The notes under the pieces: model-generated | What the model was told of the DNA's origin: nothing | Database searches by the model: none | The model's input: the letters and a program-made list of their open reading frames with translations, nothing else | Made by a program: the position numbers and the translations under genes | Source: Marinifilum sp. D737 | Lineage (GTDB): Bacteria; Bacteroidota; Bacteroidia; Bacteroidales; Marinifilaceae | DNA length: 37,883 nt | Reading direction: 5' to 3' | Assembly: GCF_026672275.1 (NCBI RefSeq) | Contig: NZ_JANQCD010000040.1 | Location: forward strand, 1 to 37,883 | Shown: one piece after another, positions 13,211 through 37,883 of the stretch | How positions within the stretch are numbered: position 1 is the stretch's first letter | How the letters are laid out: every line of letters starts with the position of its first letter

Positions 13211-14620
13211 TTATTTTCTTTGATAACATCGTATCCAATCAATCTCCATTTCAGCATTCAAATCATTTCTTGCTTCTTTTACTGCGAGGCTAAAGTTCAG
13301 ATACATTGGATCTTGAGGGATTCCTGATGTTTGAGTTTTTACAGGCACATCATTAATTTTCCACACCAATTCGTTTGCACTCCAATCAAGTGAATATATA
13401 AAATATCCTTTACTCAAATCAATTCCTTTTACTTTGAACTCACTCTTCTGCGGAGAATTTTCACTTCCCCAAAAATTGGCATTCATTATTTTTCCTCCAT
13501 TAAAGGTTTTAAAAATATCGATATGCGGTAAGCTTTTGTCTGCAACCATCCAGAATGAATTCTGAACCTGGGCAGGGTTTTTCACTTTAATCTTAGCTTC
13601 GAATCTTCCGAACTTTTGGCGAAATGAATTACCTGTATTAATAATGGCCGAAGTATAATCGAACTTTTTAGGCACAAACCCTAAATTTGGAGTCCAAACC
13701 AATCCTTCTTTTGTTTCTTTTTTTGCCAGCAGGCAAGCTGATGATCCTGAAATTTTAACATTTTCACCATCAGTAAATGTATGCAAGTCCGAATCTAATG
13801 AATATCCTTTATCCATTAATTTATCTCCCCAATAATAACGGGTAATCCATTTATTGGAGTCTAAATTTCCAGCATCGAATTCTTCCGAGAAAGTTAATTC
13901 CCATTTCTTAATTTCTTCAAATGGATTTTTGTCTTTTAACTTGAAATGCTTAACAAATTTCTCTGATGATTTTAAGCTATTGTACTCTTGAAGCTTCTTA
14001 AAATCCTCTGTTTTTTCGAATCGTTTTTTATCCAAAAGAAATGCTTTCTCTTCTTTAAATTCTTCCGAGCTTATTCTTTCCTCAAGTTGGTAATATTTCT
14101 GCAATTCGGATGATTTATCTACCACATTGTAGATTCTTAAGGCTTTGGACTTTTTAAACTTGAAGTACTCTTTTAATCTAGCAGAGCTTTTTAGTCTTTT
14201 GTATTCCGATATTTCATCAGCATTTTCCTTTTTATTCAGTTTTGATGATTTCATCAGCGCTTCCAATTCTTTAAAGCGCGCTAAATCGTCTGATTCTGCA
14301 ACCAAATTAAAAGTAGATAATTCTGACGAATCTTTTAATCGAAAATAGGTTTTAAACTTTTTGGATCGCTGATACTTTTTAAAAGCTCTCTCTTCCTGAT
14401 ACAGCTCACTCCTTTTAAAGGATTTGCTTTCTATCATTTTTTTATTTCTCTTGAATTCATCAGATAATACCAACAATTCAAGTTCATTAAACTGCTTTAA
14501 TTCATCCGATTTCGAGAACTGTTCAAATTCTTCAAAATCACTTCTAAGTTCATCTCTTTTTTTCTCGATAGCAACAGTATTTGATGCCTTACGAAGTTTT
14601 GATGCTAAAAAAAAGCCCAT
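13211..14620 (-). CDS. Three-repeat helical protein fused to a catalytically dead GH16-like (laminarinase-fold) domain
   Basis: 469 residues without signal peptide or TM, so probably cytoplasmic. Residues 26-230 consist of three tandem repeats of about 72, 60 and 73 residues (26-97, 98-157, 158-230), each very rich in Lys, Glu, Ser and Phe. Each opens as S-x-x-L-x-x-(F/Y)-N with a second S-x-x-L 12 residues later, and each closes as S-x-x-(F/L)-x-x-(Y/H)-F-x-(L/F)-K, e.g. 'KFKTYFRLKD', 'RLKEYFKFKK', 'KFVKHFKLKD'. Residues 240-469 have a GH16/concanavalin-like fold: 'WELTFSEEFDAGNLDSNKW', 'GRFEAKIKVKN', 'EMEIDWIRCYQ'. The catalytic E-x-D-x-x-E motif reads H366-I-D368-I-F-K371: both glutamates are gone, so hydrolysis is unlikely and glycan binding or a structural role is more plausible. 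It follows the TonB gene by 100 bp on the same strand. Confidence 0.8.
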   Translation of the reverse strand: MGFFLASKLRKASNTVAIEKKRDELRSDFEEFEQFSKSDELKQFNELELLVLSDEFKRNKKMIESKSFKRSELYQEERAFKKYQRSKKFKTYFRLKDSSELSTFNLVAESDDLARFKELEALMKSSKLNKKENADEISEYKRLKSSARLKEYFKFKKSKALRIYNVVDKSSELQKYYQLEERISSEEFKEEKAFLLDKKRFEKTEDFKKLQEYNSLKSSEKFVKHFKLKDKNPFEEIKKWELTFSEEFDAGNLDSNKWITRYYWGDKLMDKGYSLDSDLHTFTDGENVKISGSSACLLAKKETKEGLVWTPNLGFVPKKFDYTSAIINTGNSFRQKFGRFEAKIKVKNPAQVQNSFWMVADKSLPHIDIFKTFNGGKIMNANFWGSENSPQKSEFKVKGIDLSKGYFIYSLDWSANELVWKINDVPVKTQTSGIPQDPMYLNFSLAVKEARNDLNAEMEIDWIRCYQRK

Positions 14621-16783: not shown

Positions 16784-17494
16784 ATGATTTCTCAGTTAAA
16801 TAGCAGGATATCTGGAATATGGGGTGATTTTATTAATCTGTTTTATCCCAACATTTGTCAGTCGTGTGGTAATGTTTTATTTAAAAATGAGCATGCCATT
16901 TGCAGTCGTTGTTTGTATCAAATTCCTAAAACCGATTTTCACCTACAGAAAAATAATCCTGTTTCAATTCTTTTCTGGGGAAGAGTAAAAATAGAATATG
17001 CAAGTTCTTACTTTACATTTGCCAAAGGAAGTAAGTTTCAAAAACTAATTCACAAACTGAAATATCATCACAGAACTGATATTGGTATTGAACTTGGAAA
17101 ACAGCTTGCCCACCAATTAAAAAACTCAAAGTTTTTTGATGATATTGATCTCATTGTGCCGGTTCCATTACATCCAAAAAAACAGAAAATTCGTGGATAC
17201 AATCAAGCAGAAGTAATTGCCAAAGGAATGAGTGAAATTATGAAACTTGAGGTAAATATTTCAAATCTTTACCGTTCAGTTCATACCCAATCGCAAACCA
17301 GGAAATCTAAATTGGAGCGTTGGGAAAATGTTGATAATATATTTAAGCTTCATAAAACCAAGTTGTTTGAGGAAAAACATATTTTGTTGGTTGATGATGT
17401 TGTAACAACTGGTTCTACCCTGGAAGCATGTGCACAAGCAATTTTAGAAGCAAAAGGTAGCAAAGTAAGTATTGCTACCTTGGCATATGCTTAA
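16784..17494 (+). CDS. ComF-family phosphoribosyltransferase-like protein
   Basis: 236 residues, the usual ComF size. An N-terminal zinc-binding knuckle has C25-x2-C28 and C40-x2-C43 ('CQSCG', 'CSRC'). The C-terminal type I phosphoribosyltransferase domain carries the PRPP-binding loop 'HILLVDDVVTTGSTLEAC' around residues 199-216 and the family's 'RGYNQAEVIAKG' and 'RSVHTQSQTRKSKLERWENV' signatures. ComF proteins in naturally competent bacteria help bring in single-stranded DNA, but many non-competent bacteria keep the gene and the enzymatic activity is not established. Alone on the plus strand, divergent from the secreted-protein unit. Confidence 0.93.
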   Translation: MISQLNSRISGIWGDFINLFYPNICQSCGNVLFKNEHAICSRCLYQIPKTDFHLQKNNPVSILFWGRVKIEYASSYFTFAKGSKFQKLIHKLKYHHRTDIGIELGKQLAHQLKNSKFFDDIDLIVPVPLHPKKQKIRGYNQAEVIAKGMSEIMKLEVNISNLYRSVHTQSQTRKSKLERWENVDNIFKLHKTKLFEEKHILLVDDVVTTGSTLEACAQAILEAKGSKVSIATLAYA

Positions 17495-17713
17495 TTCAGA
17501 CCTAGCCTAATCTTATAATGATGTATGTTCGATTGAAACAATATCATATAAGTATCTGCTAGATTTACTAAAGCTTTTAGCTTTCAAATTACTGAATTGA
17601 CTTTTTAAAAGCCAACGGCTAAGTACTAAGAGCCAATAGCTTGACCCTTTACATCTATGTGATGAAAATAATAAGCAATAAGGGCATCTCATGTAGAACT
17701 GATATCAAATAGA

Positions 17714-18421
17714 TTAATTTCCTGCGTCAACAAATTTATAACCTACTCCTTTTACCGTTTGAATGTAATCATCTCCAATTTTCTCGCGAAGTTTTCTGAT
17801 GTGAACATCAATTGTTCTATCGCCAACAATGATTTTTTCACCCCAAATTGAAGAATAAATTTCATCGCGAGTAAAAACTTTTTGTGGACGAGATACCAAC
17901 AAAATCAACAATTCAAATTCTTTTCGTGGTAATGAGAATTCTTTTCCATCCTGGATAATTAAATATCTCTCACGATCAATTGAAATATTTCCAAAACTTA
18001 TTAATCCATTACTTGCATTTCCTCCTTCATCGGAAACTCTTCCCGATCTTTTTAGCAATGCTTTTACTCGGCTGATAAAAACTTTTGGTTTTATTGGTTT
18101 ATTAATATAGTCATCAGCTCCAGCTTCGAATCCAGCAATTTGAGAATAATCTTCTCCTCTAGCTGTTAGGAAAGAAATCAACACATCGGAAAACTCAGGA
18201 AGCGACCTTATTTTTTCACATGTTTCCATTCCATCCATTTCCGGCATCATCACATCCAAAATAATTAAATGTGGATGCAGTTTTTTTGCTTTTTCAATTG
18301 CCTCTCGACCATCTCCGGCAGTTGATACTTGAAATCCCTCTTTTTTAAGGTTATAACTTAGGAATTCCAGAATATCCGACTCATCGTCTACCAATAAAAT
18401 TTTGTAGTTACTACTTTCCAT
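17714..18421 (-). CDS. OmpR/PhoB-type response regulator
   Basis: 235-residue transcription factor: receiver domain (about 5-120) with phosphoacceptor D56 in 'HLIILDVMMPEMDG', acidic pocket 'VDDE' (11-14) and the conserved lysine in 'NKPIKP', then a winged-helix effector domain (about 135-232) with 'EFELLILLVSRPQKVFTRDEIYSSIWGE' and 'DRTIDVHIRKLREKIGDDYIQTVKGVGYKF'. It lies 24 bp downstream of the sensor kinase gene and is its evident partner. Overall the pair is closest to PhoR-PhoB. That match, together with the hexamer arrays upstream of the neighbouring TonB receptor, suggests phosphate control, but there are no pst or phoU genes in the window. Confidence 0.93.
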   Translation of the reverse strand: MESSNYKILLVDDESDILEFLSYNLKKEGFQVSTAGDGREAIEKAKKLHPHLIILDVMMPEMDGMETCEKIRSLPEFSDVLISFLTARGEDYSQIAGFEAGADDYINKPIKPKVFISRVKALLKRSGRVSDEGGNASNGLISFGNISIDRERYLIIQDGKEFSLPRKEFELLILLVSRPQKVFTRDEIYSSIWGEKIIVGDRTIDVHIRKLREKIGDDYIQTVKGVGYKFVDAGN

Positions 18422-18445
18422 TCGGTATTGGTTGTTTAGTTCTTA

Positions 18446-19483
18446 TTATTTTGATTTATCAAGTGAAAAAGTAAAACTAGTACCTTCGCCATAGGTACTA
18501 CTTACATTTATACTTTGATTGTGAGCATCAATAATATGCTTAACAATTGCAAGGCCTAAGCCCGATCCTCCCATATTTCGTGCTCTACTTTTATCTACTC
18601 GATAAAATCGTTCGAAAATACGAGGTAAATTATCCGATTCAATCCCGATACCATTGTCTCTTACTTCAATGAGCGCTTTATTATCCATACTCATCACTTC
18701 TATTGTAGTGGTACCTTTATCTTTTCCGTATTTTATCGAATTTACTATTAAATTGTTTAAAACCTGAAAGATTTCTTTCTTATCGGCGTAAACAAAATTT
18801 GGAGCATCAATGCGATGCTTAAACTGTAACTTTATTCCATTTTTCTTGGCTCGCATCTCCTGCATCTCCAGCACTTCATTTATTAGGTCACTAATATTAA
18901 ATCTTTCGTAAACAAGTTTAAGTTCTCCCGATTCCAATTTTGAGATGACCTCCAAATCTTTTACAATGGTGATCATCCTATTGATACTTTTTTCTGTTCT
19001 TTCAAGGTAATTCCTGTTAATGGATTTGTCTTCAAGCCCACCATCAAGTAATGTTAGTATATAACCTTGAATATTAAAAATTGGAGTTTTCAACTCGTGA
19101 GAAACATTGCCAATAAATTCTTTTCTAAATTTCTCCTGTTTCTTAAGCTGTGCTACCAATGATCCTCTTTGTTCACTCCATTCTCTAACTTCTTTTTCAG
19201 CTTCAACAAGTACATCCGTACTCTTCACTTTATCACTTAAATCTTTATCAATTATTTGAGTATCATGAATGGTTTTATACAATATTCGAACTTTAGAATA
19301 CAAAAATCGATTTACCAAAATCTTGCTAAGCTTGTAAATAATCCCTACTGATATAATGGCAAATAATATGATATAAGCAGGTTCGATTGGTAACCACAAG
19401 CCAATAGTACAAAAAATAAGCACAAGAGCTCCGGCTAAGAGACTTACAAATACACTAACCTTTGTTGAGGATATAATTTTCAT
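18446..19483 (-). CDS. PhoR-like sensor histidine kinase
   Basis: 345 residues with two membrane helices at about 8-30 and 35-55 and almost no periplasmic loop, a linker/coiled coil (60-120), HisKA with the phosphorylated histidine H129 in 'FIGNVSHELKTPIFNIQG', and a full HATPase_c domain: N-box 'QVLNNLIVNSIKYG', G1 'EVRDNGIGIE', F-box 'IFERFYRVDKSRARNMGGSGLGLAIVKHI'. The lack of a periplasmic sensor domain and the short size are as in many PhoR proteins that respond to the Pst/PhoU system. It is first in a two-gene operon with the response regulator. A -7 candidate (TAATTTTG on the minus strand, 19528-19535) lies about 45 bp before the start. Confidence 0.93.
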   Translation of the reverse strand: MKIISSTKVSVFVSLLAGALVLIFCTIGLWLPIEPAYIILFAIISVGIIYKLSKILVNRFLYSKVRILYKTIHDTQIIDKDLSDKVKSTDVLVEAEKEVREWSEQRGSLVAQLKKQEKFRKEFIGNVSHELKTPIFNIQGYILTLLDGGLEDKSINRNYLERTEKSINRMITIVKDLEVISKLESGELKLVYERFNISDLINEVLEMQEMRAKKNGIKLQFKHRIDAPNFVYADKKEIFQVLNNLIVNSIKYGKDKGTTTIEVMSMDNKALIEVRDNGIGIESDNLPRIFERFYRVDKSRARNMGGSGLGLAIVKHIIDAHNQSINVSSTYGEGTSFTFSLDKSK

Positions 19484-19527
19484 CTGTTTATAATTTTCTT
19501 TCCGCTATCAGGTAGAAGCCACATGAT

Positions 19528-19535
19528 CAAAATTA
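19528..19535 (-). promoter_or_regulatory. Putative -7 box of the kinase/regulator operon
   Basis: Minus-strand TAATTTTG matches TAnnTTTG. The start site would be near 19521, with a leader of about 38 nt. No clear -33 element, which is expected if the promoter is activator-dependent. Confidence 0.35.
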
Positions 19536-19906
19536 TCATTAGCGTTTGTGTTTAATAATTTTTTAATCATTCTCGTTTCATTTCTTTTCTAAACTCTCAT
19601 GAAAATACAGATTTCCAAGTAATTTATTGTTATCAATTAAGCGTATAAATCACACTTTTTAATATGCAGCAAATATTTAAATAAAAGTAGGATATTTTCT
19701 GAAATAGAAGTTAACTTTACGTTAATCTTATTGTATCTCAGAAGCTTAATTCTTAATTTTATCTTAACATTTCTTCAATAATTCTGTCATAACAATCCAC
19801 CAAAAGAGAATTGAAAAAAAATCAAAACACAATCCAATTTTTCACCAGGAATTATAAAATTGCCTTTGTGTAATATTTCCGTAACCTTTCCTTTACTAGT
19901 TTGTAA

Positions 19907-22917: not shown

Positions 22918-25170
22918 ATGAAAAAATTATTATTAGCAATGCTAGCTATATCTGTAATAACTTTCTCCAGTTGTTCAGATAGTGATGATCTAATTCCAAC
23001 TCCATATCCTACTCCGGATGGCAAGTTTGATCCAACCAATTTAAAAGGTGAGATTAAAGATGGTGAAGAATACAAAATGGATGCGAGTAAAACTTACAAG
23101 CTAACAGGAGCATTGGTAGTACAATCGGGTGGTAAATTAACAATTCCTGCAGGAACTAGAATTGAAGCTACTTCGCCTACTACTAACGATGCAGATGTTC
23201 GTTATATAGCTGTTGCTCAAGGTGGAAAAATTTATATCAATGGTTCTGCTACAGCTCCGGTTGTAATGACTGCCGATAAAAAAGAAGCAGAAGCCTGGGG
23301 TGGTTTAGTAGTGTGTGGTAAAGCTCCAACAAATAAAGCAGATGCAGGTAGTGCTGGTGCCGAAGTTTCTGGTTTATCATATGGAGGTAACGAAGTAAAT
23401 GATAATTCAGGTGTAATTGAATATTTACGTTTAGAATATACAGGTTACAAATACACAAATGAAAAAGAATTCAACGGTCTGTCTCTTTTTGGTGTTGGTG
23501 CTGGTACTATAGTAGACTACGTTGTTTCATACAAAGGTGGTGATGATGGTATCGAATTCTTTGGTGGATCTGTAAATGCATCTCACCTTGTTTCTGTTGA
23601 TAGTGGTGATGATGGAATTGACTTTGCTGATGGATGGTCGGGTACAGGTGAGCATTGGATTGCATTAAATTCTGCAAAATCAGGTATCGAAGGATCAAAC
23701 AATGGTGATAATGGTGCAGCTACACCAATGACTGATGCTACATTAAAAAACATTACCATATATGGTATGGGCGAAAAACCATTCTTCTTGAAAGAAGGTG
23801 CAGGTAAGCAAAACATCAACAATATTGTAGTTGGAGGCTTGGCAGCTGAAAAAACTCAGGCATTTTTCTACACTTCAGACGATGATACTGATGCTGCAGC
23901 AAGAATTAATGCGAGTGACATTGTGATCACAAATGTAAATTTTGTGGATATGAAGTCAGGCCAAACTAAAGCTGTTGATGGATTAACAGTTACAGAAAAT
24001 GTTGAAGCCATAGGCGCTGGTAATGGTATTAACAAACCAGATTGGATGCCAGATGCATTAAATACCATTGATGGTTCTACTACCGTATTTGGTGACCCTG
24101 TTGTTGCTGAAGTAGCTTTTGAAGGTGATATCACAACTGATATTACTTTAGATGCAAACAACAAATACAAATTAACTGGTGCTGTTGTTGTTAAAGATGG
24201 TGCTAGTTTAACCATTCCTGCCGGAACTGTTATTATTGCAACTGATGTAACTGCTGAAGATACCGATGTTCGCTACATTGCTGTTGCCCAAGGTGGACAA
24301 ATTTTTGTAAATGGTACTGCTGATAAACCTGTTGTTATGACAGCAGAAACTGAAGAAGCAGAATCGTGGGGAGGTTTAGTTCTTTGTGGTAAAGCTCCTA
24401 CAAACAAAGCAGATGCAGGTAGTGCTGGTGCCGAAGTTTCTGGTTTATCCTATGGTGGAGATGTAGCAGATGATAATTCAGGTAGTATTTCTTATCTACG
24501 TTTAGAGTACACAGGTTACAAGTATACAAACGAAAAAGAATTCAACGGCCTTTCTCTTTTCGGTGTTGGTTCAGGTACTAAAATCGAGTATATCGTTTCA
24601 TACAAAGGTGGTGATGATGGTATTGAATTCTTTGGCGGAACTGTAAATGCATCATATATCCTTTCATACGAAAGTGGCGACGATGGTATCGACTTTGCTG
24701 ATGGATGGTCGGGAACAGGTGAATACTGGATGGCTTTAAATTCTGCTAAATCAGGAATTGAAGGATCGAACAATGGTGATAACGGAGCAGCTACTCCTAT
24801 GACCAATGCTACTTTGAAAAAACTAACTGTTTATGGCATGGGTGAAAAACCATTCTTCTTAAAAGAAGGTGCGGGCAAGCAAAACATTGATGATATTGTA
24901 ATTGGTGGTTTAGCTGACAATAAGGCTCAGGCTTACTTTTATACTTCATCAAGCGATATCGATGCAGCAGCAAGAATTACTGCTGGCGACATTGTTATTA
25001 CCAATGCTAAGTTTATTGATATGGGAACTGGCAATACTGTAAAAGCAGTTGATGGTTTAACAATTACTGAAAACGAAAATGCAAGTGGTGCCGGTAATGG
25101 AAAAGGCAAGCCAAACTGGTTATCTGATGCTTTAAATACATCGTATAACGGAACAACAATTGTTCAATAA
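22918..25170 (+). CDS. Lipoprotein with two tandem right-handed beta-helix-like domains
   Basis: 750 residues. A lipoprotein signal peptide with C19 ('ITFSSC') is followed by an acidic/Pro linker, then two copies of a roughly 350-residue domain with an exact period of 357 residues (1071 bp). Both copies contain 'YKLTGA(L/V)VV', 'LTIPAGT', 'DVRYIAVAQGG', 'KAPTNKADAGSAGAEVSGLSYGG', 'GGDDGIEFFGG', 'DDGIDFADGWSGTGE' and 'GEKPFFLKEGAGKQNI'. Short regular G/D-rich turns and V/I strands suggest a parallel beta-helix; the DDGI(E/D)F turns could bind metal. At DNA level a 40-nt stretch at 23341 and 24412 is identical, so the duplication is recent or kept alike by conversion. Such proteins are sometimes misnamed 'multidrug transporter' in databases; there is no TM segment. 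It is paired with the TonB receptor and likely sits on the outer-membrane surface as a binding or enzyme partner. Confidence 0.85.
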   Translation: MKKLLLAMLAISVITFSSCSDSDDLIPTPYPTPDGKFDPTNLKGEIKDGEEYKMDASKTYKLTGALVVQSGGKLTIPAGTRIEATSPTTNDADVRYIAVAQGGKIYINGSATAPVVMTADKKEAEAWGGLVVCGKAPTNKADAGSAGAEVSGLSYGGNEVNDNSGVIEYLRLEYTGYKYTNEKEFNGLSLFGVGAGTIVDYVVSYKGGDDGIEFFGGSVNASHLVSVDSGDDGIDFADGWSGTGEHWIALNSAKSGIEGSNNGDNGAATPMTDATLKNITIYGMGEKPFFLKEGAGKQNINNIVVGGLAAEKTQAFFYTSDDDTDAAARINASDIVITNVNFVDMKSGQTKAVDGLTVTENVEAIGAGNGINKPDWMPDALNTIDGSTTVFGDPVVAEVAFEGDITTDITLDANNKYKLTGAVVVKDGASLTIPAGTVIIATDVTAEDTDVRYIAVAQGGQIFVNGTADKPVVMTAETEEAESWGGLVLCGKAPTNKADAGSAGAEVSGLSYGGDVADDNSGSISYLRLEYTGYKYTNEKEFNGLSLFGVGSGTKIEYIVSYKGGDDGIEFFGGTVNASYILSYESGDDGIDFADGWSGTGEYWMALNSAKSGIEGSNNGDNGAATPMTNATLKKLTVYGMGEKPFFLKEGAGKQNIDDIVIGGLADNKAQAYFYTSSSDIDAAARITAGDIVITNAKFIDMGTGNTVKAVDGLTITENENASGAGNGKGKPNWLSDALNTSYNGTTIVQ

Positions 25171-34689: not shown

Positions 34690-35073
34690 ATGAGTTGGGA
34701 AGCTAAAAATTATTCAATACTTCTTGTTGAAGACAACAAATTGAATCAAACGGTAGTTAAATTTACTTTAAAGCGATATGGTTATTTAATCGATGTTGCA
34801 AATAATGGTTTGGAAGCTGTTGATATGTATAAAGAGGGAAATTATGATTTTATTTTAATGGATGTAATGATGCCAGAAATGGACGGATTAGAAGCTACGA
34901 AAATCATAAGAGAAATTGAAAATGGGCAAGAACGTATTCCAATTATTGCTCTCACAGCCGATATAATGGTCGCTAACGAAGAAAAATGTATCGAGAATGG
35001 TATGGATGCTCACTTGTCAAAACCGTTCGATGTGGACCATTTATTTAAGGTTTTGACAAATCTAGGTTTGTAA
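34690..35073 (+). CDS. Stand-alone receiver (REC) domain response regulator
   Basis: 127 residues, a receiver domain with no output domain (CheY/Spo0F-like). Phosphoacceptor D58 in 'DFILMDVMMPEMDGLEATKIIRE', acidic pair E14-D15 in 'LLVEDNKLNQ', conserved T/A in 'IIALTADIM' and the lysine in 'HLSKPFD'. The closest resemblance is to the C-terminal receivers of hybrid histidine kinases ('VEDNKLNQ', 'ALTAD', 'GMDAHLSKPF'). The soluble histidine kinase at 36591-37454 resembles the kinase half of such hybrids, so the two may be a split phosphorelay flanking ruvB; that pairing is inference. 101 bp upstream of ruvB. Confidence 0.92.
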   Translation: MSWEAKNYSILLVEDNKLNQTVVKFTLKRYGYLIDVANNGLEAVDMYKEGNYDFILMDVMMPEMDGLEATKIIREIENGQERIPIIALTADIMVANEEKCIENGMDAHLSKPFDVDHLFKVLTNLGL

Positions 35074-36590: not shown

Positions 36591-37454
36591 CTAAATAGCA
36601 ATATTCTTTCGAGTATTAGACGAAGAATATATTTCGTTAATATTTTGTTTCAATATAGCTTCAATTTTTTCTTTGAGTACAAGATTTGATTCTGAGAATT
36701 TAAATGGAATTGTGAAATAGAATATTGAACCATCTCCCAAATTTGAATCTATGTATAACTTGCCTCCAAGAAATTCAACCAATTCTTTGCTGATACTTAA
36801 TCCTAAACCGGCACCTGAATGTTCTCTGGTATATGAATTATCAACTTGGGTAAACTTCTTAAATATATTTGCTTGTTGCTGATCACTGATTCCTGGTCCA
36901 GTATCTTTCACATAGAAAAGAATATTGTGTCTGTCCTGAATTGCACAACCAAAATCAATTTCTCCTGAATTTGTAAATTTCAATGCATTATCAAGGAGAT
37001 AAGATAGTACTTTGGTTAGTTTTTTCTGATCAGTGAATATTTTATTATCACGTAAATCTTCGGTATAATTTAATACCAAATTTTTACCGCTCATGTTAAT
37101 CTTTTGCCCGTAGGCCGAATACAATGTAACCAGTAAATCATGTACTTCAATTTCTGATTCGTTGTATTCCAATGCACCGCTTTCTAATTGCGATAGTTCG
37201 AGGATTCTATTGAATAGATCCAGTAATTCTTTACTGCTCGATGACAGTATTTTTGTAAATTCATTTCGATCCTCTTTCGATAAAGAATCATCACGAAGAA
37301 GTTCTGATGCTCCTACAATAGCATTCATGGGCGTTCGAATTTCATGCGACATATTGGCTAGAAATGCATCTTTCAGCTTCTCGGTATTTTCGAGCTGAGC
37401 GCGCGCTTCTGCTAATTGTCGTTGCAATTCTTTATATGTAGGACGTTTCTCCAT
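36591..37454 (-). CDS. Soluble sensor histidine kinase (HisKA-HATPase), no membrane segment
   Basis: 287 residues with no TM, PAS or GAF domain. A short N-terminal coiled coil (about 5-30, 'YKELQRQLAEARAQLENTEKL') leads into HisKA with H37 in 'FLANMSHEIRTPMNAIVGASELL', then HATPase_c with N-box 'KVLSYLLDNALKFT', G1 'VKDTGPGISD' and G2 'GAGLGLSISKELVEFLGG'. The sequence type is that of the kinase core of hybrid kinases, but the gene ends without a receiver. A stand-alone receiver of the matching type lies at 34690. Two double-glycine peptide genes lie 114 bp upstream on the same strand with no terminator that I can see between, so co-transcription is possible. What it senses is unknown. Confidence 0.92.
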   Translation of the reverse strand: MEKRPTYKELQRQLAEARAQLENTEKLKDAFLANMSHEIRTPMNAIVGASELLRDDSLSKEDRNEFTKILSSSSKELLDLFNRILELSQLESGALEYNESEIEVHDLLVTLYSAYGQKINMSGKNLVLNYTEDLRDNKIFTDQKKLTKVLSYLLDNALKFTNSGEIDFGCAIQDRHNILFYVKDTGPGISDQQQANIFKKFTQVDNSYTREHSGAGLGLSISKELVEFLGGKLYIDSNLGDGSIFYFTIPFKFSESNLVLKEKIEAILKQNINEIYSSSNTRKNIAI

Positions 37455-37568: not shown

Positions 37569-37661
37569 TTAGACTAGAATGTCTTCATTTATCGACTTAT
37601 CTTGGTAACCACCAAGTGTATTGTCTTGCTCCTGAATTGTTAATTCTTCAAAGGTGTTCAT
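37569..37661 (-). CDS. Double-glycine leader peptide 1 (core YQDKSINEDILV)
   Basis: A 30-residue ORF, too short for most gene callers. The leader 'MNTFEELTIQEQDNTLGG' (1-18) has the hydrophobic positions (F4, L7, I9, L16) and terminal GG of peptides cut by C39-peptidase ABC exporters; the core, residues 19-30, is YQDKSINEDILV. The strongest evidence is the second gene 60 bp upstream, with the same length, the same GG position and 11 of 12 core residues identical although the leaders differ. A -33/-7 candidate lies between the two genes. It may be a secreted signal, a bacteriocin-like peptide or the precursor of a modified peptide; S23 stands where the paralogue has Cys. The histidine kinase gene follows on the same strand. 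Confidence 0.75.
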   Translation of the reverse strand: MNTFEELTIQEQDNTLGGYQDKSINEDILV

Positions 37662-37683
37662 ATTGAATATGATAAGGAAAAAG

Positions 37684-37715
37684 TAAATATAAAAAATACG
37701 ATCTACTTATTCAAA
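37684..37715 (-). promoter_or_regulatory. Candidate promoter of peptide gene 1
   Basis: Minus strand: TTTG (37715-37712), 20-bp spacer, TATATTTA (37691-37684), one mismatch to TAnnTTTG. Start near 37678, leader about 17 nt. It would let peptide 1 and perhaps the kinase be expressed apart from peptide 2. Confidence 0.4.
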
Positions 37716-37721
37716 TTTTTC

Positions 37722-37814
37722 TTATACCAGGATATCTTCGTTAATACATTTGTCTTGGTATCCACCTTTAATAGTTTTTAAATCTTCAGTGTTTAATACT
37801 TCAAAATTTTTCAT
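37722..37814 (-). CDS. Double-glycine leader peptide 2 (core YQDKCINEDILV)
   Basis: A 30-residue ORF paralogous to the one at 37569-37661. The leader 'MKNFEVLNTEDLKTIKGG' (1-18) is a textbook ComC/bacteriocin-type leader (L-x-x-E-(D/E)-L-x-x-I-x-GG). The core is YQDKCINEDILV, with Cys at position 5 of the core instead of Ser. A single Cys could allow a disulfide dimer, a thioether or thiolactone, or redox switching. No ABC exporter, C39 peptidase or modifying enzyme is in the window; the upstream side is cut off at 37883, so more paralogues and the exporter may lie beyond. Reality of the gene is supported by the conserved paralogue; function is inference. Confidence 0.78.
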   Translation of the reverse strand: MKNFEVLNTEDLKTIKGGYQDKCINEDILV

Positions 37815-37883
37815 TGCTATTTTTATTTGGTCGTTAATAACTAGGAAAATACTTTTTGGAAAATTTGGATTACTATGGGTCGA

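Follow-up and report, generated by a model that had tools for sequence, protein, structure and literature searches.

Tandem double-glycine leader peptide genes and a divergent TPR-CHAT gene form a conserved partnership in Marinifilum sp. D737 and its relatives

Peptide pheromone systems of the ComABCDE/Blp type, in which the signal is made behind a double-glycine (GG) leader, belong to streptococci, and the RRNPP receptors (Rap, NprR) are cytoplasmic regulators of Gram-positives. Proteolytic switches acting on sigma factors form a second group of described systems: in type III-E CRISPR CASP a protease cleaves the inhibitor of a sigma factor (PMC10028731), and in the ECF54 group there is no anti-sigma factor and peptides go unmentioned in the relevant passage (PMC8999054). 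Here, we describe an array of very short GG-leader genes in Marinifilum sp. D737 that is conserved beside a TPR-CHAT gene, and discuss what the peptides may do. The leader signature is already known (TIGR01847); for the surrounding module, and for GG peptides together with TPR-CHAT or ECF proteins, no description was recognised in the open-access literature searched, which was mostly without subscription papers and bioRxiv.

The window, meaning the whole stretch of DNA that was analysed (37,883 nucleotides), makes up the whole of contig C65, one of 130 in a 5.08-Mb genome, and its end cuts through the array. Its relevant features are the following.

34690..35073, plus strand: stand-alone response-regulator receiver protein, syntenic in most family loci
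36591..37454, minus strand: soluble histidine kinase (HisKA + HATPase_c, no TM segment found), a conserved neighbour of the array
37569..37661, minus strand: GG-leader peptide gene, kinase-proximal copy with the odd leader, core YQDKSINEDILV, from the ORF list and copy comparison
37722..37814, minus strand: GG-leader peptide gene, array copy (copy B), core YQDKCINEDILV, leader above the TIGR01847 cut-off
37789..37881, no strand given: 93-bp exact repeat of the start of contig C35 (C35 3-95), at the assembly break inside the array

The two peptide ORFs encode MNTFEELTIQEQDNTLGGYQDKSINEDILV (37569-37661) and MKNFEVLNTEDLKTIKGGYQDKCINEDILV (37722-37814), each of 30 codons on the minus strand with GG at residues 17-18, and of the 11 core codons that specify the same residue in both, eight carry a synonymous change. 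Because window positions 37789-37881 are identical over 93 bp to C35 3-95, with one mismatched base flanking each side, we conclude that the assembly broke the array at this point. A third full copy is found on C35 at 104-196 (MKNFEVLNTEDLKNIKGGYQDKMINEDILV, core YQDKMINEDILV), and the start of C35 also carries the first codons of one copy, which is either copy B repeated or an additional, collapsed copy. The window ORFs are genuine genes, the terminal members of a tandem array that continues past the contig end and has at least three full copies in Marinifilum sp. D737, an extra collapsed copy in the gap not being excluded. With TIGR01847 the leaders of copy B and the C35 copy score 18.3 and 19.3 (cut-off 15.7), that of the odd copy is not above the cut-off, and leader scores with PF03047 (ComC) and PF10439 lie just under theirs.

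A first-pass annotation, made from sequence alone, had described a tandem pair of 30-codon minus-strand genes with GG at 17-18 and cores differing at one residue; position, strand, length, GG and the single core difference all held, and the arrangement is indeed tandem, but part of an array rather than a pair. Its proposal of selection on the core held as well, but the accompanying 'drift in the leader' was too simple, since the odd leader marks the kinase-proximal copy and recurs, differing from the neighbouring copy at six or more residues, in 11 of the 17 arrays compared. It did not recognise the core from known families and suggested an undescribed system; this needs the qualification that the leader taken alone matches TIGR01847.

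Arrays of this kind were found in all five genus genomes, and peptide profile matches in 19 of 56 family genomes (E<=0.01), with two to six copies per array where no contig end truncates it and a copy spacing of 153-169 bp in G001 and G004. Precursors in the family are 30-33 aa long and their cores 12-15 residues. One group of cores comprises YQDK(S/C/M)INEDILV, YQDR(M/S)INDDILV, YQDKSICDDILV, MSDKSILDDCLV and MTEKITVDDILV, further groups, Labilibaculum and Ancylomarina included, have 15-mers such as INEMTDVSTCEDCIV, ENEMNDVSICDDCLV and HNELTQKDIVEEAIV, and the net charge of the ten family cores examined is -2 to -5.

Selection was assessed by comparing the odd copy with its neighbouring copy, pooled over 11 genomes as raw proportions. 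The core is under strong purifying selection, with pN.074 and pS.846 (pN/pS about 0.09) against.366 and.556 in the leader (pN/pS 0.66; core vs leader changes, Fisher p=5e-14). The core of the odd copy is also nearest, by distance sum, to the other copies within its own genome, a sum attained by 2 out of 720 permutations within either of two six-member groups, and synonymous mismatch within vs between genomes is.55 vs.67 in one group and.40 vs.46 in the other. Since cores match within a genome while synonymous mismatch is almost the same within and between genomes, the copies retain one lineage-specific amino-acid sequence, as expected when all copies serve a single partner; gene conversion behind the matching cores is doubted on the same near-equality, though it remains conceivable to a limited extent. 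These genes thus form a widespread family of very short genes under clear selection, which standard gene calling may overlook.

The histidine kinase gene lies on the same strand as the array, 114 bp downstream, and the receiver protein encoded at 34690..35073 is a possible partner for it. Kinase, array and divergent TPR-CHAT gene follow one another on a single contig in 12 of 17 genomes compared; in G000 (the genome of the window), G032, G034, G049 and G050 a contig break falls inside the array and leaves kinase and CHAT on separate pieces. In most of the 17, CHAT is adjoined by an ECF sigma factor gene and the gene for a TPR protein with one TM segment, both being absent from the pieces examined of G049 and G050, with an ECF gene elsewhere in G049. 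The conserved order is ECF, TPR membrane protein, CHAT, array, kinase, and it is retained in G005, G006 and G009 (Ancylomarina-type cores), where the ruvB side is gone. Two separate observations concern a secreted-looking 750-aa protein with two near-identical halves (window 22918-25170) and locus L051 of G038, in which a stop interrupts the CHAT gene, the TPR membrane protein is matched as two pieces and the array is apparently intact.

How far the partnership reaches was examined by scanning the CHAT alignment against one genome per species (84,980 species), which gave 225 relatives, the best 80 being retained and yielding 79 loci, of which 63 were counted, each having no less than 400 bp of sequence upstream of CHAT, and 16 were dropped. 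A divergent GG-leader ORF lies upstream of TPR-CHAT in 51 of these 63 (15/16 family loci, L067-L084, and 36/47 outside the family), and none was found by the leader pattern upstream of the remaining 12. Controls gave 0/63 on the opposite strand, 0.2-0.6% in shuffled DNA and, at other places in the same loci, 0/394 windows in the family and 0.64% of 944 outside. As the leader pattern was composed after examples were known, it was re-applied unchanged to 40 regions from further CHAT matches, comprising seven repeats of known loci, one region that was too short and 32 new ones; a GG-ORF was present in 8 of the 32 and not in 24, with 0 on the opposite strand. By CHAT length, a GG-ORF accompanied 51/58 proteins of up to 1000 aa and 0/5 longer ones in the first set, and 4/5 and 4/27, respectively, in the second, where open-frame lengths were used. 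A clean subfamily split by length, clear in the first set, was thus not upheld in the second, and from both sets the partnership appears strongest in the shorter subfamily without being restricted to it. Array and CHAT are genuine gene partners, and the partnership extends to Prolixibacter, Sunxiuqinia, Mangrovibacterium and Gaoshiqia; at L090 a single gene run holds peptide, TPR protein, kinase, two LytTR proteins, PCAT and HlyD. Separately, G003 carries a distant TPR-CHAT relative (L045 3184-5375, G003:C461; ~26% identical over the matched part) that adjoins a GG-ORF with core DNDKNISEDGTVIEIQ, with a promoter-like site on the same contig, and this could be a second copy of the system.

The TPR-CHAT protein has a single TM segment by hydropathy scan, C-terminal and followed by a basic tail, and its N-terminus looks signal-like by eye but stays under the scan threshold. 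Its identity is clear: the Pfam CHAT match is 6.6e-58, the AlphaFold model of the M. flexuosum protein (pLDDT 82.7, pTM 0.73) has as its best Foldseek match the TPR-CHAT protein Csx29 over the full protein length (E 1.7e-15), and the catalytic His and Cys of the CHAT domain are invariant in 27/27 sequences. Profile matches of the TPR part include kinesin light chains, LGN/Pins and the peptide receptors NprR, RapJ and RapI, and among four Marinifilum genomes this part is the most variable stretch besides the C-terminal tail. Between G000 and G001, dS is 1.24 in the TPR part and 0.21 in the CHAT domain, and the comparison of G000 with G004 shows the opposite pattern (0.42 and 0.91), suggesting segment exchange within TPR-CHAT. 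Partial Mantel tests did not decide for covariation of the TPR part with the core, giving p=.11,.08 and.009 for core and TPR part given the CHAT domain, and p=.14,.30 and.0002 for core and CHAT domain given the TPR part. The TPR membrane protein has its TM segment at 91-113 and, in a model of moderate quality, three short N-terminal helices; we take it to be an anti-sigma factor from its place beside the ECF gene, an inference without fold-search support, since the search returned only TPR proteins (best E 1.4e-3) and no anti-sigma fold.

A promoter-like sequence, GGGTTACC-N14-GGAATAAAG, is shared by the array and the ECF operon, preceding both the first peptide gene and the ECF gene in 11/11 aligned family loci; Ancylomarina loci have GGGTTACT at both places. 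The whole 5.08-Mb genome of Marinifilum sp. D737 contains three such sites (reversed control 0), and a longer form of the pattern with up to three mismatches returns the same three, which lie upstream of the array, of the ECF operon and of the gene for a 982-aa C25 (gingipain-family) peptidase with a propeptide and a T9SS tail (site G000:C97 80292-80322; locus L221 2734-5682). C25-like proteins are also found behind the site in G032, G036, G039 and G040, profile tests having covered only the own C25 protein and the G000 tail. Across the family, when either C or T is allowed, the pattern occurs in 21/22 CHAT-positive genomes and in 2/34 others (G035 and G036; reversed control 0/56), the exception being G008, and locus L083, whose coordinates agree with G008, has the site with one base changed. 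In Marinifilum flexuosum DSM 21950 a single contig carries the array, TPR-CHAT, the ECF gene and two of the promoter-like sites.

Outside the family, a looser form, GG(G/T)TNAC(C/T)TTT-N9-13-GGAATWA, scanned in 61 non-family loci (L085-L145), gave 22 sites. Of these, 16 stand 44-111 bp upstream of a GG gene and are spread over 15 loci; L139 has one ahead of an ECF gene, L121 one ahead of a kinase gene, and the remaining four precede no marked gene. L139, with the sequence before both its GG gene and its ECF gene, is the only non-family locus where promoter sharing is clear. The form GGGTNACCTTTT-N10-GGAATWA has two extra sites in the genome of Marinifilum sp. D737, before a small regulator gene and a transporter-like gene, and matched 5/395 class-level and 18/393 order-level genomes. 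As a detector of GG peptides in class and order it failed: by the leader pattern, 1 of 27 order-level sites examined precedes a GG-ORF, the others preceding ECF, kinase or secreted-protein genes or nothing recognised, and a GG-ORF was likewise absent at six other loci examined, so that the looser form is not confined to GG genes. When the best stretch shared upstream of ECF and peptide genes was compared with 40 shuffles per locus, 14/43 loci exceeded all of them, 11 of these from the family, with L093 a stretch matched to itself, L124 not the promoter-like sequence and L139 the promoter-like sequence; in all 16 family loci compared, the best stretch was the promoter-like sequence. The sequence is best interpreted as the site used by this ECF clade, with the peptide array as the clade's conserved target here. 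The looser site at G000:C48 51209-51237, like that at L219 (G032), precedes a gene for a protein with multiple membrane segments, transporter-like and EamA-like in appearance.

A C39-ABC exporter (PCAT) is encoded on the adjoining contig C35 at 17484-19691, followed by HlyD, the pair occupying 17.5-21.1 kb and lying ~17 kb from the array. Some PCAT match (E<=1e-120) is present in 33/56 family genomes; counting as orthologues only those with at least 71% identity, a cut picked after the list was known, PCAT co-occurs with the module in 22/22 CHAT-positive vs 1/34 CHAT-negative family genomes (Fisher p=1e-14), the lone CHAT-negative genome being G035 (1180 contigs). The match in G002 spans 581/722 residues. 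In the family PCAT is near the array operon, not within it, and at some distant loci it falls inside the examined flank. That PCAT/HlyD exports the array peptides is an inference supported by this co-occurrence, GG cleavage and release not having been shown, and since a 70-aa GG-ORF with neighbours of its own adjoins PCAT on C35, the exporter may serve that peptide instead. Homologous GG-ORFs, further copies beyond the contig end and an exporter, which the first-pass annotation had recommended seeking, were thus found, and a modifying enzyme was not recognised among conserved neighbours (no dedicated search). None of its refuting conditions applied: related genomes do have homologous GG-ORFs, the core is under purifying selection and an exporter is present. 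The exported functional peptide that it proposed is supported overall, its export by co-occurrence only.

The surroundings of PCAT offer further observations. At L004 13517-14243 and 14308-19691 (G000:C35) there are a degenerate promoter-like site (at 13517), followed by a small HTH-like regulator gene and the 70-aa GG-ORF, and genes for an M28 peptidase and a C39-VKOR fusion, a set that looks like a second exported peptide; in G029 (L196) an exact promoter-like site precedes a similar regulator/GG-ORF pair. Two more GG-leader ORFs (50-54 aa) with Asp-rich cores lie near PCAT in L066 7037-7366 (G004:C8).

The whole explanation that we prefer, while judging it as likely to fail as to stand, is an acidic peptide that is exported as a signal, induces its own synthesis and is sensed through a TPR-CHAT/anti-sigma layer. 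The ECF sigma factor would read GGGTTACC-N14-GGAATAAAG before the peptide array and its own operon, an inference that rests on the shared sequence; the 30-33-aa precursors would be cut after GG and exported via PCAT/HlyD; and a receptor outside the cytoplasm would then recognise the released acidic peptide of 12-15 residues, the likeliest candidate being the TPR superhelix of TPR-CHAT, whose gene is divergent from the array. Peptide binding would activate the caspase-like CHAT domain, which may then cleave or displace the TPR membrane protein, the putative anti-sigma factor, freeing the ECF for positive feedback on the array and its own operon. Sensing by TPR-CHAT and its action on the TPR membrane protein are inferred by analogy with Csx29/Csx30/CASP-sigma. 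That the peptide induces its own synthesis is likewise inferred, and the promoter-like sequence common to array and ECF operon fits it; passage of the signal between cells is also an inference. The histidine kinase downstream of the array would form a second output branch, and in Marinifilum sp. D737 the T9SS-tailed gingipain-type (C25) peptidase gene, carrying the same promoter-like sequence, may be a further target. A bolder reading, which we consider slightly more apt to be wrong than right, is of a Bacteroidales peptide pheromone: a short, acidic, species-specific exported peptide would meet a membrane-anchored caspase-like TPR-CHAT receptor, and proteolytic release of the ECF would feed back on the array and could drive a secreted T9SS protease. 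If true, quorum sensing would here have a receptor of the caspase type.

Several alternatives must be weighed against this signalling model. The first, possible but considerably less likely, is that the peptides are an output, antimicrobial or otherwise active, made and exported in response to envelope or other stress sensed through TPR-CHAT/ECF. Class II bacteriocins typically have GG leaders and PCAT export, TIGR01847, named 'bacteriocin', matches two of the three leaders, and membership of an ECF regulon is equally compatible with output and signal. Against it, the family cores are merely 12-15 residues and acidic, no immunity gene was recognised within the conserved order, and multiple identical copies beside a kinase, plus the LytTR regulators of L090, fit signalling better; a single lineage-specific core also fits a single interaction partner, a role that an immunity or target protein could fill as well.

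A second alternative, about as unlikely as the first, holds that TPR-CHAT has in the peptide a private ligand or substrate in the periplasm, which reports on the cell's own export or the state of its envelope as feedback within one cell, and not an intercellular signal. The conserved partner has a C-terminal TM segment and an inferred periplasm-facing topology, unlike a classical surface receptor, and wherever a GG-ORF was found the peptide and CHAT genes are always adjacent or nearly so. However, export by a PCAT paired with HlyD normally crosses the whole envelope, and the cores vary between species and agree within a genome, which resembles strain specificity. A modified RiPP (lanthipeptide, rSAM) is not favoured: cores such as MTEKITVDDILV and HNELTQKDIVEEAIV lack Cys, TIGR04149 stays under its cut-off and, without a dedicated search, conserved neighbours include no recognised modifying enzyme. 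Finally, the idea that repetitive DNA has produced these open frames by chance, for which the 93-bp repeat at the contig end and the even copy spacing in two relatives could be cited, is all but excluded by the overwhelmingly synonymous differences between odd and ordinary cores, the presence of arrays in several genera and GG-ORFs of other sequence at the equivalent position in distant loci, the TPR-CHAT locus counts and pN/pS together ruling out a repeat artefact.

Returning to the signalling model, the module resembles several described systems in part. With ComABCDE/Blp it shares a short GG-leader precursor, PCAT with an accessory protein and a histidine kinase, and the L090 gene run, which also holds LytTR proteins, is a ComABCDE-like set; it differs in that the kinase beside the array has HisKA and HATPase_c only, without a membrane sensor, and so does not qualify as a membrane kinase receptor, and in its conserved TPR-CHAT and ECF/TPR membrane protein neighbours, Gram-negative host and tandem copies. 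Bacteroidetocin and other GG-leader RiPP clusters of Bacteroidales likewise combine a GG leader with PCAT (PMC10352776), but are bacteriocin or modified-peptide clusters, whereas the array cores are 12-15 aa and acidic, and their neighbours are TPR-CHAT, ECF and kinase, with no modifying enzyme recognised among those conserved. In ECF54, ECF and CHAT genes share one neighbourhood and proteolytic control has been proposed (PMC8999054). The TPR peptide-binding domains of RRNPP receptors are matched, by profile, by the TPR part of the CHAT protein, although the array-linked TPR-CHAT is a membrane-anchored protease.

The likeness to type III-E CRISPR CASP lies in the TPR-CHAT fold (Csx29) and a nearby ECF sigma factor. 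The differences are that no CRISPR genes were seen among the genes inspected, with no Cas7-11 or Csx30 noticed in the L004 ORFs (no dedicated search), that the array-linked TPR-CHAT has a TM segment and exported peptides replace the RNA-guided partner, and that the part of inhibitor would fall to a TPR membrane protein instead of Csx30. The TPR-CHAT switch described in CASP acts on an ECF-like sigma factor, and the module would join peptides to such a switch, giving a large family of bacterial caspase-like proteins one candidate ligand and offering sharp predictions in the form of a 12-residue peptide, one promoter and three strict genome sites.
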